From Paraburkholderia sp. (GTDB lineage Bacteria > Pseudomonadota > Gammaproteobacteria > Burkholderiales > Burkholderiaceae): 64,000 nucleotides of DNA. This document shows, piece by piece, positions 16,643 to 33,212 of this stretch. The position numbers and the translations under genes were made by a program. Where the stretch lies: assembly GCA_031286755.1 (NCBI GenBank), contig JAITTX010000306.1:16259-80258 (forward strand). The letters run 5' to 3'. The notes beneath the pieces were generated by a model, which had not been told where the DNA came from, searched no databases, and saw nothing but the letters and a program-made list of their open reading frames with translations. The number at the start of each line of letters is the position of its first letter. Within the stretch, counting starts at the first letter, position 1.

Positions 16643-16744
16643 CGCGAAGCGGGTCGAGTCGGGATCCGCTCGATTATGCCCTCGCCATGCGGGCTTGCGT
16701 GCGCGAAAGAAAATCGGGCGGGGAAGGCGCGCGCCGCCCGGCGA

Positions 16745-16810: not shown

Positions 16811-16813
16811 CGC

Positions 16814-18100
16814 TTATGTCTCTCGTGCTTCGTCATGCACTTCGAGCAAGGTGCCGATGCGCGCGGGCGAGAACGGCGGGCGCTGGCCGCCAGCCCCGCT
16901 ACGCGGCCAGCCGAAGCAGAATGCCGCCGCCTCGCCGCAGATCTTGCCCTGGCAAGGCCCCATGCCGCAGCGCGTCTGCAATTTGGCGTCGCGCCATGAG
17001 CCGTACTGCGCGGCGTCGCCGAAGCGCACGTCCTCGCAACGGCACAGCACCGTGTCCGGCTCGGCCAGCGCGCGCAAGCGCGCATCGAGCGCGAACGCTT
17101 CATGCATGCGCGCGGCGAAGCGCCGGTAGCGCGCGCGCTGCGCGAACCCCGCGCGCGCCTGCCCGGCCTCGCCAAGCGCCGCGTGCGCCGCGATGCGGCC
17201 TTCCACGGCCGCCAGCTCCATGCCGCCCACGCCCGTGCATTCGCCCGCCGCGTAGACGTCGGGCAGCGAGGTGGCCTGCAAGTCGTCGACGGCAATCGCC
17301 GCGACGCCCTGCGTTTCATCGATCCCGCACCCCAGCGCCGCGCCCACGAGCGTATTGGGCACGAGGCCGTACGCGCAGGCGAGGCGCTCGCAATCGATGC
17401 TCAAGTCCCCGACACCCCTGCGAACGCGCACATGCGTGAGCTGCGTCTCGCCGCCCGCCTCGACCACATGCGCGCCGCACAGGTACGGCGTGGCGCGCAG
17501 ATCGAAGCGCATGCGCGCCGCCTGCACGAGCTTCGCGGGCGTCGCCACGAGTCCGGCCGCGAACTGGCGCACCGCATGCGCCGGCGCCTGCTCGACGATC
17601 GCCACCACCTGCGCACCACGCTCGCGCGCCGTGACGGCGGCGGCCCACAGCAGCGGGCCCGTCCCCGCGATCACGATACGTTCGCCGCGCACCGGCATGC
17701 CGCCCTTCACGAGCGCCTGCAAACCGCCCGCGCCCGTGACGCCGGGCAGCGTCCAGCCCGGATACGGCAAGAAGCGCTCGCGCGCGCCGGTCGCAATGAT
17801 GAGCTTGCCGTAGTCGACCGTGTAGCCGCGCGCCGCGTCCTCGAGCAGCAGTTGCCGCGCGCCGCTGGCCTGCACCACGCGCGTGCCACTCAAGCGCGCC
17901 ACGTTGAGCAGCGCCGTGAGCGCTTCGATGGCCTCGCGCGCGGGCCCGGCCGGTGCATGCTGCGGGCCCTGGCGCCAGATCTGGCCGCCCGGCAAGGCGT
18001 TGTCGTCGACGATGCCGACCTGCGCGCCCGCGCGCGCCGCCACGCGCGCCGCATTCAGTCCGGCTGGGCCCGCGCCAATAATCAGGATGTCGAACTTCAT
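16814..18100 (-). CDS. D-hydroxyproline dehydrogenase subunit, HcnB-like FAD/NAD(P) oxidoreductase
   Basis: This is one of three subunits predicted to oxidise cis-4-hydroxy-D-proline to the pyrroline imine at the membrane. The 428-aa protein has the FAD-binding GAGPAG at residues 9-14 (FDILIIGAGPAGLNAARV), a second nucleotide motif around IVIAGTGPLLWAAA, and a C-terminal cysteine cluster for an iron-sulfur centre (Cys353, Cys355, Cys378, Cys383). The same three-subunit arrangement is known from hydrogen cyanide synthase (HcnABC) and opine oxidases. Its ATG overlaps the stop of the 2Fe-2S subunit by four bases. Subunit lettering differs between species, so no symbol is given. Confidence 0.87.
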   Translation of the reverse strand: MKFDILIIGAGPAGLNAARVAARAGAQVGIVDDNALPGGQIWRQGPQHAPAGPAREAIEALTALLNVARLSGTRVVQASGARQLLLEDAARGYTVDYGKLIIATGARERFLPYPGWTLPGVTGAGGLQALVKGGMPVRGERIVIAGTGPLLWAAAVTARERGAQVVAIVEQAPAHAVRQFAAGLVATPAKLVQAARMRFDLRATPYLCGAHVVEAGGETQLTHVRVRRGVGDLSIDCERLACAYGLVPNTLVGAALGCGIDETQGVAAIAVDDLQATSLPDVYAAGECTGVGGMELAAVEGRIAAHAALGEAGQARAGFAQRARYRRFAARMHEAFALDARLRALAEPDTVLCRCEDVRFGDAAQYGSWRDAKLQTRCGMGPCQGKICGEAAAFCFGWPRSGAGGQRPPFSPARIGTLLEVHDEARET

Positions 18101-18366
18101 TCGGCCGCTCTTCCCGTCACCACTTCCATGCCATCCGCGCAGAGCGTCTGGCAAGCCAGCCGATGCCGCACGCCGTCGATCGTCACGCGGCACTCCTGGC
18201 ACACGCCCATGCCGCACAGCGGGCCGCGCAAGGCACCGCTCACGGAGCGGCGCGTGATCACGCCAGCCGAGCCCGCCGCGAGCGCGACGGCCGCCACGAC
18301 CGAACTGCCGCGCGCCACGCTGACGCTGTGGCCATCCACGTCGAGCGTGATCGTCCCCTCAGGCAT
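18097..18366 (-). CDS. D-hydroxyproline dehydrogenase small subunit, 2Fe-2S ferredoxin-like (HcnA-like)
   Basis: This 89-aa protein has a plant-type 2Fe-2S cluster pattern: Cys51, Cys56 and Cys59 in LCGMGVCQECR, with the fourth ligand in the following ACQTLC. It starts with a beta-hairpin fold (TITLDVDGHSVSV) typical of HcnA-like subunits. It overlaps both neighbours: eight bases with the FAD subunit upstream and four bases with the FAD/NAD subunit downstream. This supports a tightly coupled complex. Confidence 0.88.
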   Translation of the reverse strand: MPEGTITLDVDGHSVSVARGSSVVAAVALAAGSAGVITRRSVSGALRGPLCGMGVCQECRVTIDGVRHRLACQTLCADGMEVVTGRAAE

Positions 18367-19561
18367 GCGTGGCTCCCGTCGTCCCGGCAGGCGTCGCGGC
18401 CGGTGTGGAAAAGCGCGCCGGCAAATACGGCGTGGCGTCGATGCGCGCCAGATCCGGCACGCCGAGCATCTGCGCGGCGATCAGCCTGGCGGTGCCCAGC
18501 GCCGTGGTCACGCCCAGGCCCTCGTGTCCCGTGGCGAGCCACGTCGAGCGGTGGCACCCGGCGCCCGCAACCGATTGCGCAGACGATTCCGCAAAATGCG
18601 CGGCTGGCCCGATGAGCGGCTGGCCATCGCGGGTGGCGGGCCGGAAACCCGTCCATGCGCGAATCGCATTGAGCGAGGGCAACTCCGGCAGATACTCGGC
18701 CGCGCGGCGCAGCATGCGCGCGAGAATCGCCGGCTCCACGGCGGAGTCCAGGCTGTCGAACTGGCGCGACGAGCCGATCAGCAATTGCCCCGTGGGGCGC
18801 GGCTGCACGTTGAACGCCACCGAGGTACCAGTGGCGTTGTGCGCGCTCTTGATATAGCCGAGTTCGAGCACCTGATGGCGTATCGTGCCCGGGTAGCGGT
18901 CCGTGATCAGCAGATGCCCTTTCTTTGCCTGCATCGGCAAGCCCGGCAGCAGCTCGGCGCTCTGCAGACCACTGGCGAGCAGCACGGCGCCCGCAGCCAG
19001 CGTCTCGCCATTGGCCAGCACCACGCCCGCGCGATCGAGGCGCGCCACGCGCGTCTGCAGCCGGCACGCAATGCGCCCCTTCACCGGCTGCGCGAGCAGC
19101 CAGGCGGCCACCGCGGGCGCGTAGACCACGGCGTCGTCGGGAATGACCATGCCGCCGCGCAAATCCCGGCGCAAGGCGGGCTCCGCCTCGCGCACCTGTT
19201 GCGCGTCGAGCATCGCGCACGCCACGCCCTGGCTCGCGAGCGCTTGCCGGCGCGTTTGCGCGAGCGCGTACTCTTCGTCGTCGGCGGCCACCCACAGCGT
19301 GCCGCAGCGCACGAACGCCTCGCGCGCGGTGAGGCGCGGCGCGAGTTCGAGCCACAACTCGCGCGACCACGCGGAAAGCGCGAACTCCGCGGGCGTGTCG
19401 TCCATCACCACCAGGTGCCCCATGCCCGCCGCGCTCACCCCGCCGCCCACGCCCGCGCTATCGAGCACAAGCACGTCGGCGCCCTGCCGCGCGAGTTCGT
19501 GCGCACACGCAGCGCCCACGATGCCCGCACCCACCACGATCACATCGGGACTGGCACCCAT
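18359..19561 (-). CDS. D-hydroxyproline dehydrogenase catalytic subunit, DAO-family FAD oxidoreductase (HcnC-like)
   Basis: This 400-aa member of the D-amino-acid oxidase/glycine oxidase family has the Rossmann motif VIVVGAGIVGAACAHELARQ near its N-terminus. It also shows the FAD-contacting C-terminal block GHEGLGVTTALGTARLIA. It is the likely substrate-oxidising subunit for cis-4-hydroxy-D-proline. ATG 19561 is 8 bp past the epimerase stop codon, and its own end overlaps the 2Fe-2S subunit. The start is assigned by the fold; no strong ribosome site is visible. Confidence 0.88.
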   Translation of the reverse strand: MGASPDVIVVGAGIVGAACAHELARQGADVLVLDSAGVGGGVSAAGMGHLVVMDDTPAEFALSAWSRELWLELAPRLTAREAFVRCGTLWVAADDEEYALAQTRRQALASQGVACAMLDAQQVREAEPALRRDLRGGMVIPDDAVVYAPAVAAWLLAQPVKGRIACRLQTRVARLDRAGVVLANGETLAAGAVLLASGLQSAELLPGLPMQAKKGHLLITDRYPGTIRHQVLELGYIKSAHNATGTSVAFNVQPRPTGQLLIGSSRQFDSLDSAVEPAILARMLRRAAEYLPELPSLNAIRAWTGFRPATRDGQPLIGPAAHFAESSAQSVAGAGCHRSTWLATGHEGLGVTTALGTARLIAAQMLGVPDLARIDATPYLPARFSTPAATPAGTTGATHA

Positions 19562-19569
19562 CGGCTTCG

Positions 19570-20520
19570 TCACGCGTGAATGCCCCAGGCGAAGGGATCG
19601 TCGTCGCCGAAGATCAGCCGCGCTTGCGCGCTCACGTGCGCCGTGCCGCGAATGCTCGGGCGCACGTAGCCGGGCGCGAGATCCGCGCCGTGTTCGTAGC
19701 TCGCTTCGAACACGCTGCCCACGATGCTCTCCTGGCGCCACTTCGCGCCCGGCGCGAGCAGGCCGTCGGCGGCAAGGCACGCGATCTTCGCGCTCGTGCC
19801 CGTGCCGCACGGCGAGCGGTCGTAGGCCTTGCCGGGGCACAGCACGAAATTGCGGCTGTCGATGCCGGCCTTGTCCGAATGCGCGAACAGTTCGATATGG
19901 TCGATCGGCGCGCCGCCTTCGCCCGTGATGCCGTTGGCTTCGAGCGCCTGGCGGATGGCCCACGAGGTTTCCGTGAGCGACTCCACGTTGGCGAATTCGA
20001 GCTGCTGGCCATGATCGGAGACGAGGAAGAACCAGTTGCCGCCCCAGGCAATGTCGCCGTGGATGCGGCCGAGGCCGGGCACGTCGAGCGGCACGCCCTG
20101 GCGGTAGCGGTACGCGGGCACGTTGCGCACCGTCACGCTGCGGTCCGCGTGCAGTTCGGCCTCGACCACGCCCACCGGCGTTTCGATGCGGTGCACGCCC
20201 GGCGCGATGCGCCCCAGATGCGCTAGCGAAACGATCAGGCCGATCGTGCCGTGCCCGCACATGCCGAGAAAGCCCACGTTGTTGAAGAAGATCACGCCCG
20301 CCGAGCAAGCCGGATCGTGCGGCTTGCACAACAGCGCGCCAACCATCACGTCCGAGCCGCGCGGCTCGTTGACGATGCCGGCGCGCACGCTGTCGAAGTC
20401 GCGGCGGAAGATTTCGAGCCGCTCTGCGAGCGGGCCGCGGCCGATCTCCGGGCCGCCTTCGGTCACGAGCCGCGTGGGCTCGCCGCCGGTATGGGAGTCG
20501 ATTACGGTGAGGGTTTTCAT
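19570..20520 (-). CDS. lhpA: 4-hydroxyproline 2-epimerase
   Basis: This enzyme interconverts trans-4-hydroxy-L-proline and cis-4-hydroxy-D-proline, the first step of the pathway. The 316-aa protein belongs to the proline racemase superfamily and has both catalytic cysteines, Cys88 in MCGHGTIG and Cys238 in SPCGTGTSA. Having cysteine at both sites separates it from trans-3-hydroxyproline dehydratases, where one is Thr. The N-terminus [18 protein letters not shown] is typical of the hydroxyproline branch. It is followed at once by the dehydrogenase genes. Confidence 0.93.
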
Positions 20521-20633
20521 GCCGGTAATCGTAGGTCTCGCCCGTCTGGCCGTCTTGCTCGAACGGCTCAGCGGCAATGACGATTTCGGCATAGCGCGCG
20601 CCGGGCAGCGCGCGCCGGTTCAGGCCGCGCCGC

Positions 20634-21584
20634 TCAAACGCCGGCGCCGCCCTCGGCGCGGGTGCCACGCACGAACACCTGGCGCAGCCACGCCGGGCCA
20701 TTCACGATCGCGAGCCCCGCGAGCACGAGCGCCGAGCCCGCCAGAAACGCCGCATCGACATGCTCGTGCAGGAGCAGCACGCCCATCGCCACGCCGAACA
20801 GCGGCGTCATGAACGAGAGCACGCCGAGGCGCGCTGCAAAGTAGCGGCGCAGCAGCCAGAACCAGACCAGATAGCTCACGAAGGCCACCACGACGGCCTG
20901 GAACGCGAGGCTCGCGAGCGCGAGCGGCGTGCCGCGAAACGTGGTCTGGCCGGTGGCAAAGGCGAACGGCAACAGCAGGAAGAAGGCGCACGCGAGCTGG
21001 TAGAAAAGCGTCTGCGTAGGAGGCGCCTCGCTCAGGCGGGTGGTGCGCACGATCACCGTGGTCATGCCCCACGCCGCGCCGCCGCACAAGGCCATGAAGT
21101 CGCCGAGCAGCCAGTTGGCGCCCGCCGCGGGGCTGACGCCGCCCACCAGCGCCGGCCCGAGAAACGCCACGGCGATGCCCGCGAACGCGAGGCCGATGCC
21201 GCCCCACTGGAGGCGGGCGAGACGCTCGTCGGGCAGCTTCAGATGCAGGCCGATGGCCGCGAACAGGGGAGCGGTGTAGAGCAGCACGGCCACATGCGAG
21301 GCCTTGGTCCAGCGCAGCCCCTCGGCGACGAACAGGAATTCGAGCGCGAACAGCGCGCCCACCGCGAGCCCGGAGCGCAGCGCGATGCCGGGCAGCCAGC
21401 GCTCGCGCGTGACGAAGCGGTTGAACAGCCAGACGAGCACCGCCGCGCTGCCCGAGCGCACGCTCACCTGCATCATGGGCGCGATGTCGCCGGCCACCGC
21501 CTTGATGGCCACCTGCTGGAAGCCCCAGATCAGGCACAGCGTCACCATGATGGCCATTGCCGCGCCATCCACATGCTTTCTCAT
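20634..21584 (-). CDS. EamA/DMT-family inner-membrane transporter
   Basis: This 316-aa protein has about ten transmembrane helices in two EamA repeats (LCLIWGFQQVAIKAV at the start and the second repeat around WLLGDFMALCGGAAWG). It is the first gene of the leftward hydroxyproline cluster, 113 bp before the epimerase, so uptake or exchange of hydroxyproline or a related imino acid is plausible but unproven. ATG 21584 is used; an in-frame GTG at 21626 would add 14 residues. Confidence 0.87.
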   Translation of the reverse strand: MRKHVDGAAMAIMVTLCLIWGFQQVAIKAVAGDIAPMMQVSVRSGSAAVLVWLFNRFVTRERWLPGIALRSGLAVGALFALEFLFVAEGLRWTKASHVAVLLYTAPLFAAIGLHLKLPDERLARLQWGGIGLAFAGIAVAFLGPALVGGVSPAAGANWLLGDFMALCGGAAWGMTTVIVRTTRLSEAPPTQTLFYQLACAFFLLLPFAFATGQTTFRGTPLALASLAFQAVVVAFVSYLVWFWLLRRYFAARLGVLSFMTPLFGVAMGVLLLHEHVDAAFLAGSALVLAGLAIVNGPAWLRQVFVRGTRAEGGAGV

Positions 21585-21869
21585 TGCCAGCCCACGAATT
21601 TCATTCTTGACCGGCGTAGTATTCACGCGTCAGGATCAAGTCATATAGCGCAAAACTGACAACCGATAGCGGCAGACCGCCAGCGCCGCAATGGCGCGCC
21701 ATCCGGCTCGCGCGCGCCACGGGTCATGTGTGCGCCCCCGCATACATTCGCATAGCAAGACGCGCACGGCTGACTAGAATGTTTGAGTGCAAGCCATGCT
21801 GTAAAGACGGTCGGTTCAGACGCAACATTCGGTGACGTGACGTTTCCATTCCTTATTGGAGGCATGTCC

Positions 21870-22394
21870 ATGACGTGCCTGAACGAAAGGATTGTCGCTG
21901 CGGTATGTCTCCTGCTGAGCGGGTATGCGCTCGCAGACGGCCCTCTTGCAGACGCCCCCGTGGAAATGACGGTTGCCAGCATTGCGCCGCTGCCCGTGGA
22001 GATCGTGGCGCCCATTCCCGGGCCGCAAAGCTATCTGCATCGCTACGAATTCCAGTATCAGGCCGAGCAGCGCGCGCCTTTCGACGCGCTACTGCAGGAC
22101 TTCTATAGCGTGCCGATCACCCACGATTTCCGGCCCGGCGAAGAGAATGCCGCCCCAGCGCCCGGACTGGCGCAGCAGCAACAGCAGCCGTCGGGTCATC
22201 TCCATCTGGGCGCATCCACTGCGCCAGCGCTCACGCTCAGGGAGTTTCCGAACGCCACCTTGACGATAGGCGCGCAGCCCCAGCGGCGGCTGTCGTTGAC
22301 CGTCGACGACTGGGTGTTCTCCGCCACCGCCCGCGTCGCGATCCTGCATTCACGCAGCACGGGCGCGACGGTGACTGTCCGGCGCGGCTTTTGA
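21870..22394 (+). CDS. Exported protein of unknown function
   Basis: This 174-aa protein starts with a clear signal peptide (MTCLNERIVAAVCLLLSGYA, then LADGP), predicted to be cleaved after residue 22. The mature part is Pro/Gln-rich in the middle, with a QQQQQ run, and ends in two beta-rich segments (LTLREFPNATLTIGAQPQ, then SLTVDDWVFSATARVAILH). No family is recognised. ATG 21870 was chosen because GGAGG lies seven bases upstream; the ATG at 21864 would be too close. It converges on the siderophore receptor gene. Confidence 0.65.
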   Translation: MTCLNERIVAAVCLLLSGYALADGPLADAPVEMTVASIAPLPVEIVAPIPGPQSYLHRYEFQYQAEQRAPFDALLQDFYSVPITHDFRPGEENAAPAPGLAQQQQQPSGHLHLGASTAPALTLREFPNATLTIGAQPQRRLSLTVDDWVFSATARVAILHSRSTGATVTVRRGF

Positions 22395-22413
22395 ACGGAA
22401 CCCCACCGTTCAA
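22391..22413. repeat. Dyad at convergent gene ends
   Basis: TTGAACGG and CCGTTCAA form a perfect 8-bp stem around a 7-base loop. The dyad spans the stop codons of both the exported protein gene and the TonB-dependent receptor gene. No U-tract follows on either strand, so classical termination is uncertain. Confidence 0.5.
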
Positions 22414-24650
22414 AAATCAATCTTCGCGTTCAGGCTCACCGTGCGCGGGTCGCCCGGCGCAATGTAGTTGTCGTACTGGAACATCCAGTAGCGGCGGTTC
22501 GTGAGGTTGTCGATGGCCGCGCGCAGCGTCACGTCGTGGCCTCCAATGCGTGTCATATAGTTCGCGCCCACGTTCACGAGCATGTAGCCGCCCGTCTCCA
22601 GGTTGCCGGCGGGACGCACTTCGGTGTTGCCCGTGTACTTCGCGTCGGCGCCCAGACGCAGGCCCGGCACGAACGGCACGTCGTAGCTCACGCGCGCCGC
22701 CGCGACGAACTGCGGCGCGCCCGCCACGCGCTTGCCGTTGTACTGCTGCCCCTTCGCGTACCACGTATCGAGCAGCATGACATCGCCCGCCACCATCCAG
22801 TTGCGGCCGAGACGCACGCTGCCGCCCGCCTCGATGCCCTGATAGATCGAATCGCCGTCCTGCGTGAGCACGTTCTGATCGTTCGCGTAACTCGCGCCGA
22901 GCTCGATGCGGAACAGCGCCGCGTTCGCGCTCCAGCGCGCGTGCTCGCTCTTGATGCCCACCTCGTACTGGCGCGAGCGCAGCGGCCGCAGCACCGACCC
23001 GCCATTCGCATAGATATCCGAAACGATCTGCCCCGGCTCCAGCGACTCCACATAGCTCGCATAGAGCGTGGTTTGCGGTTCGAGCTTGTACATGAGCGCG
23101 AAGGTCGGCGTAAAGACGCCGTTCTGCCCATACGACGCAGTCGTCGCGCCCGATTCCGCAAAGGATTCCTGATCGTAATTCGTGTAGCGCACGCCCGCGA
23201 GCACCGACCAGCGGCTCGTGAGCTCGATGGTGTCGCTCACGAACAGCGACTTCTGGTTGATCTCGCTCGCGCGGTACTTCTGCAGACCGCTGCCCGAGTA
23301 GTAGCGGAACGGATTGGGCTCGTAGAGATTGCCTTCGCCGAGCGTCGTGATGACCGTGCCCGCCGCCGTGCCGTAATCGTTGGTCTGATGCTGGACCGCC
23401 GCGCCGAACACCAGTTGGTGCGTGAGCGGCCCGGTTTTCACCTTGCCTTCGAAGGTGCCCTGCCAGTAGATGTCCTGATGGCCCTCGTCGCCATTCCAGC
23501 GGTTATCGGTGTAATTGCCCGCCTGGTCGAGCAGCGTGAGCGTGCTCTCGTTGCGGTCGCGCGTGGACTTGCTGTAGCTCGCCGAGGTGTTGAACGTCCA
23601 GTCGGGCGAGATCTGGTATTTGACGCCGGCCGTGTAGAGCTGCAGGTTGGTGTTCAGATGCTGGTCGGTGCCGGCGAGCCAGTTGGTGCCGCCGCTGATC
23701 GTCGCGGGCAGGTTCGCGGCCGTGTAGCTGCCGGTGTAGATGGCCGGCGTCTGGCCGCTCGCGCGGCTTTGCTGATAGATCGCGTTGAAGTAGACCTGCA
23801 GGTCGCGCGTGAGCTGCCCGTCGAGCGCGAGCGCCAGCGAATTGCGGTTGATGTCGCCCGCGTTATAGGTCTTGCCCGCTTCGTGCGTGTAGTTGATGCG
23901 CGCGCCGAACATGCCGTCCGGACCGAAGCGGCGGCTCAGGTCCACGTGCTGGGTCAGCACACCATCCATGCGATAGCCGAGGTCGAGGCTCGCGACCGGG
24001 TCCTTGCCCGGCTTCTTCGTCACGTAGTTGACCACGCCGCCCGGCTGCGCGAAGCCATACATGAAGCCGCCGAGCCCCTTGAGCAGCTCCACGCGCTCGA
24101 GATTCTCGTAGGGCATCGTGATGCCGTACGAGATGAACGGATTGCCGTCGATGCGAAAGCCGTTCTGCCAGTCGATGGGCAAACCGCGAATCGTGATGTA
24201 GGTCGCCCATGCGCTATAGGCGTTGCTGTTGTCGGTGACCGAGGCGTCACCGGCGAACACGTCGCCGAGCTTGTTCGCCTGACGGTCTGCCAGGTCCTCG
24301 CCCGTGACCACGGTGGTGGAGAACGGCGTGTCGAGCTGCGAGCGCGTGCCGAGCGCGCCGTTCGAGACCGGCGTTTCCAGATGTAGCGGCGAGTCGCTCT
24401 CGGCGGTGGCGCTCACCTTCACGGCGGGCAGCGCCTGCTCGGCGGCGGACGGGGCGGCGCCATTGGGCGTCACTGCGCCGGGCGTTACGGCGTTCGCGCC
24501 GCTCGTGGACGCCTGCGCGGCGGCACCAGCGCCGGCCGCGGATTGGGCAAAAGCGGACTGGGCCGCTGCGGCAAACGTCAGCCAGGCGGCAATGCGCACC
24601 GGACGGTGGAGCCTGCGCCCCGGACGGCGCGCGATTCGTTGATTGTTCAT
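22410..24650 (-). CDS. fauA: TonB-dependent ferric-siderophore receptor, FauA-like
   Basis: This outer-membrane receptor imports an Fe(III)-hydroxamate siderophore using TonB energy. The 746-aa precursor has a signal peptide (ending ...AAAAQSAFAQ), an Ala-rich linker, a plug domain from about residue 90 (STTVVTGEDLADRQANKLGD, then VELLKGLGGFMYGFAQPGGV), and a 22-strand barrel ending in ...NAKIDF with a terminal Phe. ATG 24650 gives this precursor. The name follows from the divergent alcaligin-like operon; receptors of this class are otherwise hard to assign to a ligand. A Fur-like box lies just upstream. Confidence 0.85.
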   Translation of the reverse strand: MNNQRIARRPGRRLHRPVRIAAWLTFAAAAQSAFAQSAAGAGAAAQASTSGANAVTPGAVTPNGAAPSAAEQALPAVKVSATAESDSPLHLETPVSNGALGTRSQLDTPFSTTVVTGEDLADRQANKLGDVFAGDASVTDNSNAYSAWATYITIRGLPIDWQNGFRIDGNPFISYGITMPYENLERVELLKGLGGFMYGFAQPGGVVNYVTKKPGKDPVASLDLGYRMDGVLTQHVDLSRRFGPDGMFGARINYTHEAGKTYNAGDINRNSLALALDGQLTRDLQVYFNAIYQQSRASGQTPAIYTGSYTAANLPATISGGTNWLAGTDQHLNTNLQLYTAGVKYQISPDWTFNTSASYSKSTRDRNESTLTLLDQAGNYTDNRWNGDEGHQDIYWQGTFEGKVKTGPLTHQLVFGAAVQHQTNDYGTAAGTVITTLGEGNLYEPNPFRYYSGSGLQKYRASEINQKSLFVSDTIELTSRWSVLAGVRYTNYDQESFAESGATTASYGQNGVFTPTFALMYKLEPQTTLYASYVESLEPGQIVSDIYANGGSVLRPLRSRQYEVGIKSEHARWSANAALFRIELGASYANDQNVLTQDGDSIYQGIEAGGSVRLGRNWMVAGDVMLLDTWYAKGQQYNGKRVAGAPQFVAAARVSYDVPFVPGLRLGADAKYTGNTEVRPAGNLETGGYMLVNVGANYMTRIGGHDVTLRAAIDNLTNRRYWMFQYDNYIAPGDPRTVSLNAKIDF

Positions 24651-24714
24651 ATTGGCCAGAGTTAGGGGCGCCTTCCGCACGGGAACATACGGGAGTGTCA
24701 CCCGGAACACAAAT

Positions 24715-24733
24715 ACGACTCATTCTCATTACA
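24715..24733 (-). promoter_or_regulatory. Fur-like box upstream of the receptor gene
   Basis: The rightward strand reads CGACTCATTCTCATTACA here. By eye about 11 of 19 positions agree with the classical Fur consensus, including the TCATTA half. It lies about 65 bases upstream of the receptor start, where an iron-repressed promoter is expected. Confidence 0.6.
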
Positions 24734-25029
24734 TATCGGGCGGCATATTATCAAAGCCTTTTGTCTTTTGAAAGCCTCTGGCAGAAATTCGTCAGGATGC
24801 CCAGTGGGTCGCCGCGTCAATCTCCCCAACGGCCGCAGGGTCTTTCGTATGAAGATTTTTGATTAAAAAGCGCCCGCAGAAGCCTGCTTTGCGCACGCCG
24901 CGCAACACGCGGCCGATCCCCCTCGCGCGCCGGTGCGCTCGGGCTTTGCCGGCCTCATACGCCGATGCGTCCAGATGCGTGCTGGGTCGGCTCAACGATT
25001 CGGCATCCTTACCGTGATGCGTTTTGCCC

Positions 25030-25058
25030 TTGCCAGGTGCAATCGAGTTTCCTATGAT
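25030..25058 (+). promoter_or_regulatory. Sigma70-type promoter of the siderophore operon
   Basis: TTGCCA at 25030-25035 and TATGAT at 25053-25058 are separated by the ideal 17 bases. The predicted start point falls within or beside the Fur-like box at 25067-25085, so bound Fur would block initiation. Confidence 0.6.
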
Positions 25059-25066
25059 TCGCAAAC

Positions 25067-25085
25067 ACGAATCGTTCTCATTTGC
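25067..25085 (+). promoter_or_regulatory. Fur-like box of the siderophore operon
   Basis: ACGAATCGTTCTCATTTGC matches the Fur consensus at about 11 of 19 positions by eye when read on the other strand (GCAAATGAGAACGATTCGT). It sits just after a good -10 element and about 100 bases upstream of the N-hydroxylase start. Confidence 0.6.
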
Positions 25086-25184
25086 GTCGCTATGGCGCAG
25101 ATTTGGCAAACGTTTCCCGTTCCCGGCACCTGCGGGCGCTTCGTGATCCTTCTTTCCGTCTTCGTCCATCGATGAGGTCTCAAC

Positions 25185-26594
25185 ATGGTCTTGCCCGGCT
25201 CCAGTCGAAACGCATTCGTTAGCATGCCTAACACTCAATCGAAGGCCGGCCCGCGGCCCACGCCGGGCTCCGGCGTGCTCGACTTCATCGCCATCGGCCT
25301 CGGGCCGTTCAATCTGAGCCTCGCGTGTCTTGCCGAGCCCATTGGCGATCTGCACGGCCTGTTTCTCGAACGCAACGAGGATTTCGACTGGCATCCCGGC
25401 ATGCTGATCGACGACACCACGCTGCAAAACCCATTCCTTGCGGATCTCGTGAGTCTCGCCGACCCCAAGAGCCAGTTCAGCTTTCTCAACTACTGCAAAC
25501 AGGAGGGCAAGCTCTACGCGTACTACATTCGCGAGCGCTTCTATCTGAGCCGCGCCGAATACAACCGCTACTGCAAGTGGGCGATTGGCCAGCTTTCGAG
25601 CATTGCGTTCGGCTCGCAGGTGGAGCGCGTGGAATACGTGGAGCGCGACGGCGGCCACTATGTGGTTAGCGGACGCCACGTGCGCACCGGAGCGCCGTTC
25701 GTGCACCGCGCGGCGCGCCTCGTGATTGGCGTGGGCTCGGTGCCGCAGTTGCCGCCGTGCTGCGAGGCGGCGCGCGAGCACTGCATCCATAGCGCGCACT
25801 ATGTGGCCCGCAAGCGCGAGTTGCAGGGCAAACGCTCGATTGCCGTGATCGGCAGCGGCCAGAGCGCCGCCGAAATTTTCTACGACCTGCTCAAGGAAAG
25901 CGACGAGCACGACTACTCGCTCACGTGGATCACGCGCTCGCCGCGCTTCTTCCAGATGGAGAACACCAAGCTCACGCTGGAGATGATCTCGCCCGACTAC
26001 ATCGACTACTTCTACAACCTGCCGGATCACGTGCGCGAGGGCATCATCGCGCGGCAGGACAGCCTCTACAAGGGCGTGAACGCCTCGCTCATCAACCAGA
26101 TCTACGACCTGCTCGACGACCGCCGCAGCCGCGGCCGCAACCATGCGCGGCTCATCACCAATTCCGAGCTGACCGGCTGCCATTACGACCGTGCCGGCGA
26201 GCGCTTCCAGTTGCGCTTCGTGCAGCGCGACGAAGGCGTGCAGTATGCGCACGCCACCGACGGCGCGATCTTCGCGACCGGCTACGGCCAGAACGTGCCG
26301 GGCTTCATCGACGGCATTCGCGAACGCATCCGCTGGGACGACAGGGGCCGCTACCGGCTCTCGCGCAACTACGCCATCGACGTGAACGAGCGCGACATCT
26401 TCGTGCAGAACGCCGGGCTCTACAGCCACGGCCTCACCAACCCGGATCTGGGCATGAGTTGCTACCGCAACTCCTGCATCCTGCGCGAGCTGACCGGCGT
26501 GGAGCACTACAAGATCGAGCGGCGCATCGCGCTGCAGGACTTCTCGGTGCCCGATACGGATGCGTTCGTGAAAGCGCCGCTGGAGACGCAATGA
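25185..26594 (+). CDS. alcA: L-ornithine/lysine/diamine N-monooxygenase, AlcA-like
   Basis: This flavin- and NADPH-dependent enzyme hydroxylates a primary amine, the first step in making hydroxamate groups. By analogy with alcaligin the substrate would be putrescine. The 469-aa protein has the FAD motif GLGPFN at residues 38-43, the NADPH motif VIGSGQSAAEIF, and the C-terminal FATGY signature of the SidA/IucD/PvdA family. ATG 25185 has a GAGG at suitable spacing; an internal ATG at 25224 is an alternative. The stop overlaps the exporter start (ATGA at 26591). Confidence 0.9.
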   Translation: MVLPGSSRNAFVSMPNTQSKAGPRPTPGSGVLDFIAIGLGPFNLSLACLAEPIGDLHGLFLERNEDFDWHPGMLIDDTTLQNPFLADLVSLADPKSQFSFLNYCKQEGKLYAYYIRERFYLSRAEYNRYCKWAIGQLSSIAFGSQVERVEYVERDGGHYVVSGRHVRTGAPFVHRAARLVIGVGSVPQLPPCCEAAREHCIHSAHYVARKRELQGKRSIAVIGSGQSAAEIFYDLLKESDEHDYSLTWITRSPRFFQMENTKLTLEMISPDYIDYFYNLPDHVREGIIARQDSLYKGVNASLINQIYDLLDDRRSRGRNHARLITNSELTGCHYDRAGERFQLRFVQRDEGVQYAHATDGAIFATGYGQNVPGFIDGIRERIRWDDRGRYRLSRNYAIDVNERDIFVQNAGLYSHGLTNPDLGMSCYRNSCILRELTGVEHYKIERRIALQDFSVPDTDAFVKAPLETQ

Positions 26595-27880
26595 ATCTGC
26601 GCAACACCATCATTCTGATGACGACCTTCGCCGTCGTCAGCGACGCGATCCTGATCCCGTTCTACCCGCAGTTCTTTGCCGCGCGCTACGGCGTGACGAG
26701 CCCGGTGCACGCGGGCGCCTACGTGGCGTGCATTTCCATCGTCGTGATGCTCACGCTGCCCGTGTGGGCCCGCATCGCGAAGCGTCTGGACGCCATGCAT
26801 CTGCTCGTCTACACGCAATGCGCGGCGGGCGTGCTCTCGATCGCGAGCTACTTCGCGACCACGGTGCCGCTTTTCTGGGTGCTCTCGCTCGCCATGTTCA
26901 TGTGCAAGAGCAGCTATCTGCTGATGTACCCGTACATGATGCGGCTCGAAGCGAAGGAGTCGCACGCGCATACCATCGGCGTGCTTTCCGTGGTGGTGCA
27001 CTTCGGCGCGATTGCGGGCGCCGTGGCGGGCGGCCTCGTGATGCAGGTGTGGGACGCGCATCACTGCATTTTCGCAATGGCCGCCGGCGATTTCGTGCAG
27101 ATGGCGATCTGCATGCGCTTGATCCGGACCCACCGCATCTCGCGGCGCTGCCGCTTCCTGGACGACCAGGCCGATGGCGCGAAGGCACAGGCGGCGCGCC
27201 CCGGGTTGCGCGCACGCCTGCCGATCCTGCGGCTCGCGCTGCTCATGCTCGCGTTCGACTTCTGCGTGTATCTGATCCGGCCGTTCATGTCGTCGTACTG
27301 GCAGCGCGTGAGCGGCTCGTCGAGCGAACTGGCCTCGGGCCTCGTCTTCGCGATTCCCGGCATGGTCGCGCTGGCCGCGCTGCGCATCAACAAGCGCCTC
27401 GCCGGGCACGGCAAGCCGCTGCCGAACCCCATGACGGCGAACCTGCTGCTCTGCACCGCGGGCATGTTGCTGCAGGGCGTGGAGGCGCCGCTCGCGATCG
27501 TCGCGGGCCGGGTCCTGTTCGGCTGGGCGCTGTTCCAGATCGTCGTGAAGCTCGACGTGACGATGTTCGCGCTCAGCACGCCAGCCTCGTATGCCGCCGA
27601 CTACAGCGTCATCAACTTCTTCCAGAACCTGGGCGTGCTGCTCGCTTCGTTCGCGGCTGGCGCGATCGTCGATACCACCGGCCTGCGTGCGCCGTTCTTC
27701 ATCGCTTCGGCGGGCCTCGTGCTCACCGCGTTGCTGGCTGTCTGGCTGCTCGACCGGCCGCGCGCCGCTGCGTCCGCCGAATCCACTGCGTCCGCTGCGT
27801 CCGATGTCGGGCACCCGCCCGCCGCAAGCCCCCTTTCCAGCGACCTCACCGACTCAGGAGTCACCGTCCGTGCGAACTGA
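26591..27880 (+). CDS. MFS siderophore exporter, AlcS-like
   Basis: This 429-aa inner-membrane carrier has about twelve helices (MNLRNTIILMTTFAVVSDAI at the start) and a Ser/Ala-rich C-terminal tail. It is embedded as the second gene of the siderophore operon, overlapping the N-hydroxylase by four bases and the acyltransferase by eleven. Secretion of the finished siderophore is therefore its likely role. In Bordetella the alcaligin exporter gene alcS lies at the far end of the locus, so its position here differs. Confidence 0.83.
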   Translation: MNLRNTIILMTTFAVVSDAILIPFYPQFFAARYGVTSPVHAGAYVACISIVVMLTLPVWARIAKRLDAMHLLVYTQCAAGVLSIASYFATTVPLFWVLSLAMFMCKSSYLLMYPYMMRLEAKESHAHTIGVLSVVVHFGAIAGAVAGGLVMQVWDAHHCIFAMAAGDFVQMAICMRLIRTHRISRRCRFLDDQADGAKAQAARPGLRARLPILRLALLMLAFDFCVYLIRPFMSSYWQRVSGSSSELASGLVFAIPGMVALAALRINKRLAGHGKPLPNPMTANLLLCTAGMLLQGVEAPLAIVAGRVLFGWALFQIVVKLDVTMFALSTPASYAADYSVINFFQNLGVLLASFAAGAIVDTTGLRAPFFIASAGLVLTALLAVWLLDRPRAAASAESTASAASDVGHPPAASPLSSDLTDSGVTVRAN

Positions 27881-28538
27881 AATCGTTGCCGAAGAAATCG
27901 CGCTGCTTCAGCCGTTGCACCAAGCGCCACATCAAACGCCCCGGCTCGCCGCGAGCCGCGCGCCCGATCCCGTCCGCGCGCACGGTGAGACCCCCGCCGC
28001 CAGCCCGACCGGCTTCGAGATCCGCGCGCTCGACCCGGAGCGCGACGCGCCCACGCTGCACCGCTGGTTCGTCGAGGAACGCGCCGCTTTCTGGAACATG
28101 CGCGACAAGAGCGTGCACGAAGTGGCCGCCTTCTATCGGACCATCGAGGACTCGGGTCACGCGCAAGCCTGGCTCGGTCTGCGGCACGGCGCGAGCGCGT
28201 TCCTCTTCGAGAGCTACGACCCGGCCCGCGACGAAGCCGGCGAGCACTACGCGGTGCGCGAGGGCGACCTCGGCATGCACCTCTTCGTGGGTCCGGCCGC
28301 GCAGCCCGTGCCCGGCTACACGCGTGAGGTGTTCCGCACGCTCATGACGTTCCTGTTCGAGCAACTGAACGCCGAGCGCATCGTCGTGGAGCCCGACGCA
28401 CGCAACACCCGCATTCATGCGCTCAATCGCGCGATGGGTTTCGTCTACGCGAGAGACGTGCCGTTTCGCGAGAAGACCGCTTCGCTCGCGTTCTGCACGC
28501 GAGCCGACTTTTACGCCGCCATTCAACAGGACTTCTAA
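27870..28538 (+). CDS. alcB: GNAT-family N-hydroxy-diamine acyltransferase, AlcB-like
   Basis: This enzyme is predicted to acylate the hydroxylamine product of the monooxygenase; in alcaligin the acyl group is succinyl. The 222-aa protein has an extended N-terminus and a GNAT domain from about residue 48 (FEIRALDPERDAPTLHRWF). It shares the IucB/RhbD-type blocks GDLGMHLFVGP and RIVVEPDARNTRIHALNRAMGF. The start is GTG 27870, with AGGAG nine bases upstream, overlapping the exporter stop. Confidence 0.87.
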   Translation: MRTEIVAEEIALLQPLHQAPHQTPRLAASRAPDPVRAHGETPAASPTGFEIRALDPERDAPTLHRWFVEERAAFWNMRDKSVHEVAAFYRTIEDSGHAQAWLGLRHGASAFLFESYDPARDEAGEHYAVREGDLGMHLFVGPAAQPVPGYTREVFRTLMTFLFEQLNAERIVVEPDARNTRIHALNRAMGFVYARDVPFREKTASLAFCTRADFYAAIQQDF

Positions 28539-28552
28539 AAGGACGCCATACC

Positions 28553-30508
28553 ATGACTTCATCCATTGCTCAAATGTCGATGCAACACACCCTGCTCGCG
28601 CCGCAGGAAGCCGCCGCGCATCTCACGCCCGAAGTCTGGCGCGCAGCGAACCGCATGCTGGTGCGCAAGGCCATCGCGGAGTACGCGCACGAACTCATCG
28701 TCGAGCCGCAACGCACCGGCGATGCGGAGGACGAAGGCTACGCGCGCTACGAACTGCAATCCGACGACGGCACGCGCCGCTACAGCTTCGAAGCCCGCCA
28801 GCTCGCGCTGCGCCACTGGAGCATCCGGCCAGAGACGATCGCCTGCATGCAGGGCGGCACGGAACAGCCGCTCGATGCGCTTGCCTTCATCCTCGACGTG
28901 AAAGCGCGCCTCGGCATCAAGGAGGAAATGCTGCCGATCTATCTGGACGAAATCAGCAGCACGCTCTATGGCGCGGCCTGGAAGGCCGTGAAAACCGGCC
29001 CGGACACGCCCGAATTGCTCAGCGCCGACTTCCAGGCCATCGAGACTGCCATGAGTGAAGGACATCCTGGCTTCGTGGCCAACAACGGGCGGCTCGGCTT
29101 CGACGCGGGCGACTATCGCGCCTTCGCGCCGGAAGCGGGCTCAGCCATCCAGGTGATCTGGCTCGCCGTGCACAAGGACAACGCCGCGTTTCATTGCGCC
29201 GAAGACCTCGACTACGAACGGCTCATGCACGAGGAACTCGGCGCACCAGCCATCGCGCGTTTTCAAGGCGTGGTCGAATCGCGCGGCTGCGCTTTCGGCG
29301 ACTACCGCCTGATGCCCGCGCACCCGTGGCAGTGGTTCAACAAACTCTCCATCGCGTTCGCGGCGTACGTGGCGACCAACCGCATCATCTGCCTCGGCTA
29401 CGGAGAGGACCGCTATCTCGCCCAGCAGTCGATCCGCACCTTCTTCAACGTCTCCGAGCGCTCGAAGCGCTACGTGAAGACCTCGCTCTCGATCCTCAAC
29501 ATGGGCTTCATGCGCGGCCTCTCGCCCTATTACATGTCGGGCACGCCCGCCATCAACGACTTCATCAAGGGCATGGTCGAAAACGATCCGTACCTGCGGA
29601 GCAAGGGCTTCACGATCCTGCGCGAAGTGGCGTCGATGGGCTTTCGCAACCGCTATTACGAGGCCGCCGTGCAAGCGGACAGCCCCTATAAGAAGATGTT
29701 TTCCGCGCTGTGGCGCGAAAACCCGCTCGCGCTCGCCGGTGACGGCCAGCGCCTCATGACCATGGCGGCGCTGCTGCACACGGACCGCCATGGCCGCGCG
29801 CTGCTGCCCGCGCTCATCGAGGCATCGGGGCTCACCGCGCAAGCCTGGCTCGAACGCTACCTGGACGCGTATCTCGCGCCGCTCGTGCATTGCTTCTACA
29901 CCCACGACCTCGTGTTCATGCCGCACGGCGAAAACCTCATTCTCGTGCTCGAGAACCACGTGCCGGTGCGCGCGATCATGAAGGACATCGCCGAGGAGTC
30001 CGCGATCCTCAATAAGAATGCGAAGCTGCCAGGGAACGTGCAGCGGCTTGCCGTGGACGTGCCCGAGAACGTCAAGCTGCTGGCGATCTTCATCGACGTG
30101 TTCGACGGCTTCTTCCGCTACATGAACCAGATTCTCGTCGAGCAGAATTGCTGCAGCGAGGACGTGTTCTGGAACGCCGTGGCGCGCTGCGTCGCGCGCT
30201 ATCAGGCCGCGCATCCCGAGCTCGCGCGCAAGTTCGCCGAATACGATTTGTTCGCACCCGAGTTCCTGCACTCCTGCCTGAACCGCCTGCAACTGGGCAA
30301 CAACCTGCAGATGGTCAATCTCGCCGACCCGGCCGGCAATCTGAAGATGGCGGGCAATCTGCGCAATCCGCTCGCGGGGCGGCGCGATGCGCAACTGGCC
30401 TCGCTTGCCGCCAGCGAGCACGGCGCCGTGGAAGCCTCCGTCGTGTCCACGGCCGCCGTGGAGACGGCCATCGTGGACATGGTTGCCGTCGCAACGATGG
30501 GCGCGTAA
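28553..30508 (+). CDS. alcC: NRPS-independent siderophore synthetase, IucA/IucC family, AlcC-like
   Basis: This ATP-dependent synthetase joins acylated hydroxydiamine units into the siderophore and in alcaligin also closes the ring. The 651-aa protein shows the family landmarks HPGFVANNGRLGF at residues 171-183, HPWQ at 257-260 and the long palm region with SPYYMSGTPAINDFIKGMVE. A FhuF-like C-terminal region follows (LVHCFYTHDLVFMPHGENLILV). The last about 40 residues are an Ala/Val-rich tail that looks dispensable. AAGGA precedes ATG 28553. Confidence 0.92.
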   Translation: MTSSIAQMSMQHTLLAPQEAAAHLTPEVWRAANRMLVRKAIAEYAHELIVEPQRTGDAEDEGYARYELQSDDGTRRYSFEARQLALRHWSIRPETIACMQGGTEQPLDALAFILDVKARLGIKEEMLPIYLDEISSTLYGAAWKAVKTGPDTPELLSADFQAIETAMSEGHPGFVANNGRLGFDAGDYRAFAPEAGSAIQVIWLAVHKDNAAFHCAEDLDYERLMHEELGAPAIARFQGVVESRGCAFGDYRLMPAHPWQWFNKLSIAFAAYVATNRIICLGYGEDRYLAQQSIRTFFNVSERSKRYVKTSLSILNMGFMRGLSPYYMSGTPAINDFIKGMVENDPYLRSKGFTILREVASMGFRNRYYEAAVQADSPYKKMFSALWRENPLALAGDGQRLMTMAALLHTDRHGRALLPALIEASGLTAQAWLERYLDAYLAPLVHCFYTHDLVFMPHGENLILVLENHVPVRAIMKDIAEESAILNKNAKLPGNVQRLAVDVPENVKLLAIFIDVFDGFFRYMNQILVEQNCCSEDVFWNAVARCVARYQAAHPELARKFAEYDLFAPEFLHSCLNRLQLGNNLQMVNLADPAGNLKMAGNLRNPLAGRRDAQLASLAASEHGAVEASVVSTAAVETAIVDMVAVATMGA

Positions 30509-30510
30509 GC

Positions 30511-31293
30511 ATGGCGGCGAACCGCGCACTGGTGGACCTGCTGCGGCTCGCCGCGCGTCTCGTGCCGGGCCTGCGCGGCGTGGTGCGCACGCCCGCGGCG
30601 CAAGGCCCGCTTCATGTGTGCCCCGCGCCGGGTGCGAGTGAAGGCAACCGCGCTGCGCTCGACGCCCTGCTCGCGTACTGGTCGCGAGCCTGGCCCGAGG
30701 CAGGGCGCACCTATTGGGCATCGCGCTGCTGGGGCATCCTGATCTGGCAGCCGGTGTATCTGGGCGTGATCGGCGTGCATGCCTCGCAGCGCGCGCTCTC
30801 GCTCGCGTCGCTCGCTCAACCCATAGACGAAGGCTGGACGCGCGAGGTGCATCTGCCCGACCACGCGCCCACCGCCGGCGACACCGGCACGCTGATCGGG
30901 CTCACCGCGCGCGGGATGGCCGCGTGCTGCGCGCAGATTCACGACGACCTCACCCCGGTGATCCGCGTGAACCCGGTCGCGGCGCGCGCGACGCTGGCCG
31001 ACGTGGTGCTCGCCGCCTTGCTCGCGGCAAGCAAGGCGCGGCCCGAATGGCGTCACGCGGATATCGAAGCGCTCGGCCGCCAATGGCTGGCCGCGCTCGG
31101 TCTCGAAGGCTGCGGCGGCTACTTCGCGTTCGAACGCAGCGACGGCTCGCCATCGCTCGCGCTCGAACGCCAGACCTGCTGCTATCACTACCGCCGCCGC
31201 GATGGCGAAATGTGCAGCACGTGCCCGCGGCTCGCGAAGCACGAACGCATCGCGCGACTGAACGCGGAACAGGACGCCACGCGGGAAGCGTGA
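30511..31293 (+). CDS. alcD: FhuF-like siderophore-iron reductase, AlcD-like
   Basis: This protein is predicted to reduce and release iron from the imported ferric siderophore in the cytoplasm. The 260-aa protein ends with the FhuF-type 2Fe-2S signature: a Cys-Cys pair, an aromatic/basic stretch (CCYHYRRRDGEMCSTCPRL), then C-x2-C. The upstream part is the helical FhuF/IucA-C-terminal-like fold (RTYWASRCWGILIWQPVYLG). It starts two bases after the synthetase stop. The Bordetella AlcD protein has no firmly settled function, so the reductase role rests on the motif. Confidence 0.82.
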   Translation: MAANRALVDLLRLAARLVPGLRGVVRTPAAQGPLHVCPAPGASEGNRAALDALLAYWSRAWPEAGRTYWASRCWGILIWQPVYLGVIGVHASQRALSLASLAQPIDEGWTREVHLPDHAPTAGDTGTLIGLTARGMAACCAQIHDDLTPVIRVNPVAARATLADVVLAALLAASKARPEWRHADIEALGRQWLAALGLEGCGGYFAFERSDGSPSLALERQTCCYHYRRRDGEMCSTCPRLAKHERIARLNAEQDATREA

Positions 31294-31349
31294 GCACGCC
31301 GGCGCACTGCGTCCGCACCCGCGTCCAACCGAAAGGAATCGAACCAACG

Positions 31350-32558
31350 ATGAACGACATCAGCAACCTGACGCATCTCGCTCCGCCGCCCGATGCGACA
31401 GAAAGCACACTGCAATTGCCCGCCAGCGCCTATTTCGACGAGGCATTGTTCGAGCGCGAGATGGCGCGCATCTTTGCGCAGTCGGCGCTTTACGTGGGGC
31501 ACGAGCAGTCGGTGCCGGAGCCCGGCGACTGGCGCCGCCTGCCGCAGGACGAAGGCGGCCGCGTGCTCGTTCGCGATGCCTGCGGCGCCGAAGGCGTGCA
31601 ACTGCTTTCCAACGTATGCCGCCACCGGCAGGCGCTGATGCTGGGCGGCGCCGCTGGACCCGCCGACAACGGTGGCAACAGCGGCGGCAGCGCCGCCCAC
31701 GCGCCACCCGCGCGTGGCAACCTCGCAGCGACGGGCGGCAACATCGTCTGCCCGCTCCACCGCTGGACCTACGATTCGCGCGGCGAACTGATCGGCGCGC
31801 CCGAATTCGAGCGCAAGCCTTGCCGCAATCTCGAACGTTTCGCGTTGCGCCAGTGTCATGGCCTTCTCTACGAAGGCCCACGCGAACCGGCGAAGGACCT
31901 GGCCCGCGTGTTCGCGCGGCCCGAGTTCGATTTTTCCGGCTACGTGCTCGATCACGTGCAAACGCATACGTGCCGCTATAACTGGAAGACCTTCATCGAG
32001 GTCTATCTGGAGGACTATCACGTCGCGCCTTTTCATCCGGGGCTCGGAAGCTTCGTGACCTGCGCGGATCTCGACTGGGAATTCGCCGATACCTACAGCA
32101 TGCAGCGCGTGGGCGTGCACGCGGCGCTGGCGCAGCCGGGCTCGGAGGTGTATCGCGCATGGCACGACCGCCTGCTCGACTATCGCGGCGGCGCGGCGCC
32201 CGACTTCGGCGCAATCTGGCTCGCGTACTTTCCGACCCAGATGATCGAGTTGTACCCGCACGTGCTCGTGGTCTCGACGCTCTATCCGAAGGGGCCGCAA
32301 GAGACGCTCAACGTAATCGAGTTCCACTACCCCGAGGAGATCGCGGCCTTCGAGCGCGAGTTCATCGAGGCCCAGCGCGCGGCGTATCTGGAAACCATGA
32401 TCGAAGACGACGAGATTGCCGAGCGCATGGACGCGGGACGCCTGCGGCTCGCGAGGCGCGGCGTGAGCGACGCCGGGCCGTACCAGTCGCCGCTCGAGGA
32501 CGGCATGCGCCATTTCCACGCGTGGTACCGGCGCGCGCTCGCGGGGGCGCCGCTTTAA
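31350..32558 (+). CDS. alcE: Rieske-type oxygenase, AlcE-like
   Basis: This ring-hydroxylating-type oxygenase is expected to hydroxylate the siderophore carbon backbone. The 402-aa protein has Rieske ligands Cys90/His92 (NVCRHRQ) and Cys134/His137 (CPLHRW), and the mononuclear iron site helix with His224 and His229 (FIEVYLEDYHVAPFHPG). Between the two Rieske half-sites lies an unusual Gly/Asn/Ala-rich stretch of about 33 residues (99-131) that most Rieske domains lack. It is the last biosynthetic gene of the operon. AAAGGA precedes ATG 31350 at slightly long spacing. Confidence 0.88.
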   Translation: MNDISNLTHLAPPPDATESTLQLPASAYFDEALFEREMARIFAQSALYVGHEQSVPEPGDWRRLPQDEGGRVLVRDACGAEGVQLLSNVCRHRQALMLGGAAGPADNGGNSGGSAAHAPPARGNLAATGGNIVCPLHRWTYDSRGELIGAPEFERKPCRNLERFALRQCHGLLYEGPREPAKDLARVFARPEFDFSGYVLDHVQTHTCRYNWKTFIEVYLEDYHVAPFHPGLGSFVTCADLDWEFADTYSMQRVGVHAALAQPGSEVYRAWHDRLLDYRGGAAPDFGAIWLAYFPTQMIELYPHVLVVSTLYPKGPQETLNVIEFHYPEEIAAFEREFIEAQRAAYLETMIEDDEIAERMDAGRLRLARRGVSDAGPYQSPLEDGMRHFHAWYRRALAGAPL

Positions 32559-32675
32559 TACTCGCTTAAGACTCTGCTCGCATAGTGACCAGTGACTCCC
32601 TCCGGGAGTTTCACGAGTCTCTCGTTTTGATTCGTCGTTTTGATTCGGGCAGTATCGATCGAAGGAGATACGAAT

Positions 32676-33212
32676 ATGAAATTGGGTTCGTATATCGCGG
32701 CGGGCACGCTGGCGCTCATCCCGATGCTCGCGCTTGCGGGCGGGGCGAATGCGCCAATGGATGCGCAGCGCGCCGCGCAGCCGGTATTCATCAACGTCGA
32801 TGGTCAAACCGTGCCGGTGAAAGCGCAAACGCATGTGATCCAGACCGCGGCCGGCCCAATGCAGGTGCGCACCTGGAGCTGGCACAGCCCGAACGGCAGC
32901 GCCAGCTATGAGATGCAGACGAGCACGGGCAGCGCATCGCCCGCGCTAGCGGCGCGGCAGATGCAGATGGCCCAGGCGCAAATGGTGGCCATGCAACGTC
33001 AGATGATGGCCATGCAGCAGCAGATGATGATGCTCCAGCAAGCTGCGTTCGCTGGCGGATTCGCCATGCCCGCGCCGCAAAGCGTGGTCTTCGCGGTGCC
33101 GATGTGGGCGATGCCGGATCCTGTCGTGATCGTGGAGCCGGTGCAACGCGCGCCGGTTCCAGCGACAGCGCCGCGCAATACGCCAGCGCGTTCGCCGGAG
33201 ATCAAGGCGTAG
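32676..33212 (+). CDS. Exported Met/Gln-rich protein of unknown function
   Basis: This 178-aa protein has a signal peptide (MKLGSYIAAGTLALIPMLAL, then AGG). A central stretch at about 90-125 is extremely rich in Met and Gln: repeated QMQMAQAQ, QRQMMAMQQQ and QMMMLQQ. A Pro-rich C-terminus follows. Met-rich periplasmic segments can bind Cu(I), but no known family is recognised. GGAGA precedes ATG 32676. It follows the siderophore operon by about 115 bp and is closed by a strong terminator, so it may be read through from that operon or have its own promoter. Confidence 0.8.
   Translation: MKLGSYIAAGTLALIPMLALAGGANAPMDAQRAAQPVFINVDGQTVPVKAQTHVIQTAAGPMQVRTWSWHSPNGSASYEMQTSTGSASPALAARQMQMAQAQMVAMQRQMMAMQQQMMMLQQAAFAGGFAMPAPQSVVFAVPMWAMPDPVVIVEPVQRAPVPATAPRNTPARSPEIKA

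Follow-up and report, generated by a model that had tools for sequence, protein, structure and literature searches.

An alcaligin-type siderophore operon of Paraburkholderia with a candidate exporter and receptor that are not orthologues of AlcS and FauA

The locus described here raises the question of what an alcaligin-type operon makes, and how its product is exported, taken up, and controlled, when the accessory proteins beside it are not those of Bordetella. It lies in a 64-kb stretch of DNA (the window; G000:C473:16259-80258) from a Paraburkholderia assembly that is 86% complete in 599 contigs, the nearest named species by AlcC being Paraburkholderia tagetis, P. oxyphila, and P. silviterrae. 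At 22410-32558, a leftward TonB receptor gene is divergent from six rightward genes, alcA-MFS-alcB-alcC-alcD-alcE (MFS, major facilitator superfamily). Gene calls and domain searches confirmed these seven genes and their span as given in a first-pass annotation, and each fell into its expected class in family searches (Pfam, TIGR/NF models). We consider it likely that this is an iron-regulated alcaligin operon with export and uptake parts of its own. The label “alcaligin-like” is already in print for a cluster of Paraburkholderia tropica ABIP 659 (PMC13184526); the two share the genus and the label, the passage concerned stating no gene order, regulator, receptor, or product. Judged from sequence, an ordinary alcaligin enzyme set is found here in an under-described genus, accompanied by non-orthologous parts for export, uptake, and control. 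More tentatively, we lean towards the wider view that Paraburkholderia couples alcaligin enzymes with an exporter, a receptor, and control unrelated to those of Bordetella, and that biosynthesis was deleted at least twice with retention of an iron-controlled receptor, giving natural receptor-only cheaters with producer ancestors.

Biosynthetic enzymes and the likely product

The best PDB match of AlcC is Bordetella AlcC (2x0o; E 1.6e-261, 872 bits, 63% identity), with other solved synthetases scoring lower (DfoC 754 bits, DesD approximately 705 bits), and the protein sits among AlcE-bearing clusters on the AlcC tree; Achromobacter AlcC is approximately 82% identical to the same structure. The grouping of synthetase and acyltransferase with a different siderophore family, which the first-pass annotation had named as grounds for abandoning its proposal, was thus not observed for the synthetase. 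AlcA is placed in the diamine N-hydroxylase group by its best solved relatives, namely DfoA (2e-141), a DesB-type monooxygenase (4e-139), and putrescine N-hydroxylase (6e-118), the ornithine/lysine N-hydroxylases matching far worse (approximately 1e-32 to 1e-48). AlcB was assigned by family and PDB search alone (Table 1), whilst AlcD passes the siderophore ferric-reductase model TIGR03950 with 181.2 bits against a cut-off of 137.9, its CC-x10-C-x2-C motif lying at residue 223. AlcE, 68% identical to that of Achromobacter insuavis, retains the Rieske ligands and the (D/E)xxHx4H mononuclear-iron motif. All five enzymes have homologues in the Bordetella/Achromobacter system and are by these comparisons alcaligin-type; enzyme homology, domains, and the AlcC tree together support the earlier proposal of such an operon with a divergent receptor.

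In the pathway that we propose, AlcE, with a housekeeping paralogue as helper or backup, would hydroxylate putrescine at C2, AlcA would N-hydroxylate the diamine, AlcB would add succinate, and AlcC would join two units and close the ring to give a macrocyclic dihydroxamate, most probably alcaligin. Export of the siderophore would fall to the MFS protein in second place, the divergent FemA/BauA-like receptor would import the ferric form, and AlcD may help in iron release. Fur would repress both transcription units, with no AlcR-like or FecI/FecR-like sensing of the product at the locus. The substrates, the product with its C-hydroxyl group, the transport roles, and the Fur control are all what we infer from homology and related sequence comparisons. 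Li et al. in 2016 (among the references of PMC7857480) reportedly described an AlcE-type enzyme as a putrescine 2-hydroxylase, and for this reason AlcE is predicted to make 2-hydroxyputrescine. A review of the Bordetella alc pathway puts the AlcE step after that of AlcB (PMC3510459); the order of the step is disputed, and alcaligin results from either order.

Since AlcE homologues occur almost throughout the Burkholderiales (56 of the 59 genomes searched have a match), it could be argued that the operon alcE serves chiefly to supply 2-hydroxyputrescine as a cellular polyamine, the siderophore link being incidental. The near-universal copy is, however, a distinct one located elsewhere: in the window genome it is a second AlcE-type Rieske enzyme on another contig (G000:C371:5916-6971, L146; 63% identity over residues 128-398), and such housekeeping copies form a separate group with 100% support on an AlcE tree that was midpoint-rooted and whose deep branches are long and weakly resolved. 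The operon copy is classed by its sequence as the siderophore-cluster type with an insert of its own, its two Rieske motifs (residues 90-137) being separated by 41 residues, within the 25-53 residues seen in 57 cluster AlcE proteins and outside the 16-20 seen in 11 of the housekeeping type. A polyamine role for the operon gene is therefore regarded as very improbable. The loop between the motifs is rich in glycine and alanine, and its length ranges from 25 to 53 residues among species. Given the near-universality of the housekeeping copies in the Burkholderiales searched, clusters without alcE might still yield C-hydroxylated products; in one locus (L037, G411), an A-MFS-B-C cluster has a housekeeping-type AlcE behind it, apparently recruited independently.

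The product itself invites a further alternative, namely another or a mixed macrocyclic dihydroxamate (putrebactin, avaroferrin, bisucaberin, or a partly C-hydroxylated compound), with AlcA, AlcB, and AlcC taking any available diamine. DfoA and the DesB-type enzymes, the nearest solved relatives of AlcA, belong to desferrioxamine pathways and use cadaverine. To our knowledge, no AlcE has been described for the putrebactin, bisucaberin, or desferrioxamine systems, from which the window differs in having an intact alcE and an AlcC that prefers AlcC over DfoC by the scores given above. Those systems (PubABC, BibBC, DesBCD, DfoAC) share the chemistry and homology of AlcA-B-C (PMC8891985). Because related NRPS-independent siderophore (NIS) synthetase systems use several diamines in vivo, their product set varying with diamine supply (PMC8891985), a mixture with putrebactin-like compounds is conceivable. 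Against this stand the dedicated cluster-type alcE, kept in every mapped Paraburkholderia and Caballeronia locus, and the family searches of the operon, which recognised no decarboxylase; we hold a mixed or different product to be rather unlikely, and alcaligin remains the preferred assignment.

Gene order, exporter, and control

The first-pass annotation was right to place the exporter second, overlapping both neighbours (alcA by 4 bp and alcB, which has a GTG start at 27870, by 11 bp), but the order that it called rearranged is the common one. In a gene-order map of 80 named loci, an MFS gene is second in 70, and A-MFS-B-C, with or without D and E, occurs in Paraburkholderia, Caballeronia, Variovorax, Polaromonas, Ralstonia, Hydrogenophaga, Cupriavidus, Stutzerimonas, Aquitalea, methylotrophs, and others, as well as in Bordetella petrii MY10 and Bordetella genomosp. 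2. The Achromobacter/Bordetella order is the exception: among the 80 loci, the MFS gene is missing from second place only in Achromobacter and two Herbaspirillum strains, and it is there that AlcR and AlcS appear. Since the position of the MFS and the presence of AlcR/AlcS each need a single change on the AlcC tree, the A-B-C-D-E-AlcR-AlcS-FauA layout looks derived, unless the root lies inside that clade. The account by which alcABCDER-fauA within Bordetella is restricted to the classical species and B. holmesii and was probably acquired recently (PMC5045587) fits such a derived status. If so, the Bordetella locus would be overturned as the reference layout, its AlcR/AlcS/FauA set being the one that looks derived.

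Several of the mapped loci merit separate mention. Those of B. petrii MY10 (L060, which ends at a contig edge after alcC) and Bordetella genomosp. 2 (L062) both non-classical Bordetella, are A-MFS-B-C(-D-E) clusters that differ from the classical AlcR locus in having FecI/FecR together with a signalling receptor. Clusters of the order A-MFS-B-C-E are carried by Pseudomonas, Stutzerimonas, Halopseudomonas, and Cellvibrio (L091-L093, L098-L100, L103, L105, L106, L109, L121), given which products of the alcaligin type may be widespread among gammaproteobacteria; the pseudomonads have an AlcD-like gene approximately 6-7 kb beyond the cluster on the opposite strand.

The first-pass annotation had overlooked that the operon has neither AlcS as its exporter nor FauA as its receptor. 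AlcS is a Bcr/CflA-type protein, and the operon MFS protein showed no similarity to Achromobacter AlcS by BLASTP (best E 2.2); AlcS was accordingly not recognised at the locus, no genome-wide AlcS search having been made. Weak AlcS-like matches (32-33%) occur in the flanks of other Paraburkholderia loci (L047, L048), outside the operon, and were not taken to be AlcS. The receptor scored 74 bits against the FauA model NF049960 (cut-off 900; Achromobacter control 1330 bits), and no protein of the window genome exceeded that cut-off (best 86 bits); its best PDB relative is FemA (E 7.5e-51), ahead of FauA (5.2e-15). On these comparisons, neither transport protein is orthologous to its Bordetella counterpart, and the window differs from the Bordetella/Achromobacter system in having an AlcS-dissimilar exporter in second place, a divergent non-FauA receptor, and no AlcR.

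Control at the locus differs likewise. The contig encodes a single AraC-type protein, of PAS-HTH_18 architecture (15857-16642, minus strand), approximately 8.5 kb from alcA; its gene adjoins a DHDPS-family gene in a hydroxyproline-type locus, and the protein aligns to AlcR by its helix-turn-helix (HTH) domain alone (29% over 78 aa). The rest of the 86%-complete genome holds no full-length match to AlcR, the best (33%) again covering the HTH part only. The earlier statement that no AlcR-type regulator lies nearby was therefore correct in substance, whereas its suggestion that siderophore-responsive activation had been lost is not borne out, as an AlcR-bearing ancestor is unsupported by the AlcC tree. 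The nearest AlcC proteins outside Paraburkholderia/Caballeronia, those of Variovorax, Polaromonas, Ralstonia, and Bordetella genomosp. 2, come from clusters that share the A-MFS-B-C-D-E order but have a FoxA/FhuA-like receptor upstream in the same direction; there, and in clusters of the B. petrii type, an extracytoplasmic function (ECF) sigma factor (FecI) is encoded upstream, mostly with FecR. The receptor of Bordetella genomosp. 2 has an STN signalling domain, whereas the window locus has no ECF sigma factor or FecR beside the cluster, and its receptor comprises Plug and barrel only by Pfam, without the STN domain. An AraC-type activator or a FecI/FecR pair encoded elsewhere might still regulate the operon, the genome having some 45 HTH_18 proteins and one FecR and its assembly being incomplete and fragmented as stated above. 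Set against this are the HTH-only alignments to AlcR, the missing STN domain that FecR signalling needs, and the Paraburkholderia and Caballeronia loci checked, none of which gave a match to AlcR or FecI/FecR; a distant regulator seems unlikely.

Control by Fur is the preferred reading. With a Fur matrix trained on alcA-upstream sites of other Paraburkholderia and Caballeronia species, the site upstream of alcA (25067-25085) ranks first in the 64 kb (23.0 bits, against 17.2 for the next) and that upstream of the receptor (24709-24727) third, and sites similar to the one before alcA occupy the same place in other loci of the two genera. Both window sites are taken as putative Fur sites, and under iron-replete conditions Fur probably represses the receptor gene as well as the operon.

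The receptor and the loss of biosynthesis

Amongst 144 genomes of the genus, the cluster was found in 23 and a receptor orthologue (at least 76% identity) in 37. The receptor is present in 22 of the 23 cluster-positive genomes and in 15 of the 121 cluster-negative ones (Fisher 3.8e-15, relatedness not corrected), and in G016 it is carried approximately 110 kb away from the operon. This co-occurrence supports a ferric-alcaligin role for the receptor without proving it, and the protein is a candidate for a new class of ferric-alcaligin receptor.

Several points weigh against the reading of the locus as an iron-regulated alcaligin system, in addition to the breadth of diamine use noted above. The receptor family differs from the known alcaligin receptors, so that its ligand is a prediction; the receptor also occurs in the 15 cluster-negative genomes, and related species in the count are not independent. 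By the 19-bp E. coli Fur consensus the promoter sites are unremarkable, matching at 11 of 19 positions where 71 sites in the window have 11 or more matches, and the Fur sites are singled out by the lineage matrix only, which was itself trained on orthologous promoters.

The same observations, that the receptor is not FauA-like and is found outside cluster-positive genomes, would suit a general xenosiderophore receptor standing next to the operon by chance. Such a chance placement is judged improbable, in view of the presence of the receptor in nearly all cluster-positive genomes even when unlinked and of the nature of several cluster-negative carriers, which either retain fossils as former producers or show a cleanly empty site. 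Two of these, G448 and G488, share the synteny of the window (HypE, EamA, a 203-aa gene, the receptor, and a 190-aa gene, with MBL as well in G448) without alcA-E, and their sequence picks up again inside the final 34 nt of alcE, a 3' scar at L178:9930-9963 and L179 approximately 7730-7763. In G448, the scar agrees with the window at 27 of 34 nt, no other offset in the 12.7-kb locus doing better than 22, and the alignment runs on across the stop codon and the 3' flank. Both genomes are nested among cluster-positive species on the receptor tree and still have the receptor promoter site. G479, on a separate branch of that tree, carries a piece of alcA (residues 352-397) and a piece of alcB (residues 63-89, with stops) at L180:9307-9513, in their original order beside an intact receptor gene. 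The fossils in G448/G488 and, on the separate branch, in G479 thus record at least two losses of biosynthesis in which the receptor was retained, and three receptor-bearing genomes hold alc fossils. In G536, the operon is cleanly absent relative to G013. Among related species, one chromosomal locus is thus seen as the operon of a producer, as a clean absence, or as fossils, which offers a clean system for the study of siderophores as public goods.

A recent horizontal gain by the window lineage was considered and disfavoured: within the clade that shares the HypE-EamA-receptor-operon-MBL synteny, the receptor tree and the deletion fossils point to loss in relatives more than to recent gain. 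Other clades carry the operon at other sites (e.g., L051-L054), and transfer or relocation within the genus may have taken place.

Features of the locus and its neighbours

Table 1. Features of the receptor and alc operon in window coordinates, with the evidence for each
Feature	Coordinates	Strand	Evidence
TonB-dependent siderophore receptor (FemA/BauA-like, not FauA-type); proposed ferric-alcaligin receptor	22410..24710	-	Pfam Plug+barrel; PDB; 22/23 cluster-positive genomes
Fur-box-like site upstream of receptor	24709..24733	no strand	16.9 and 13.7 bits in overlapping registers; third and fifth in 64 kb
Fur-box-like site upstream of alcA, GCAAATGAGAACGATTCGT	25067..25085	-	23.0 bits, top of whole window
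alcA, FAD-dependent diamine N-hydroxylase (predicted)	25185..26594	+	Lys_Orn_oxgnase; solved relatives DfoA, DesB-type, putrescine N-hydroxylase
Putative MFS exporter, no BLAST similarity to AlcS	26591..27880	+	MFS_1
alcB, GNAT N-acyltransferase (putative succinyl transfer)	27870..28538	+	Acetyltransf_8, PF13523 159.7 bits; DfoC acyltransferase part 1.7e-40
alcC, NIS synthetase (predicted dimerisation, macrocyclisation)	28553..30508	+	IucA_IucC+FhuF; PDB 2x0o; AlcC tree
alcD, FhuF-like siderophore-iron reductase (predicted)	30511..31293	+	FhuF_C / TIGR03950; CC-x10-C-x2-C motif
alcE, Rieske oxygenase, cluster-type putative putrescine C-hydroxylase	31350..32558	+	Rieske+Ring_hydroxyl_A; motifs; tree

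Two small conserved genes without a Pfam match (21783-22394 and 32640-33212) flank the receptor and the operon, and both remain with the receptor in the operon-less G448 and G488. Adjoining the siderophore operon at 13378-21626 (minus strand) is the hydroxyproline-type catabolic locus, which comprises Ldh_2, the DHDPS-family gene, the PAS-AraC regulator, FAD oxidoreductases, an epimerase-like protein, and an EamA transporter, and whose receptor-side end is conserved in relatives.

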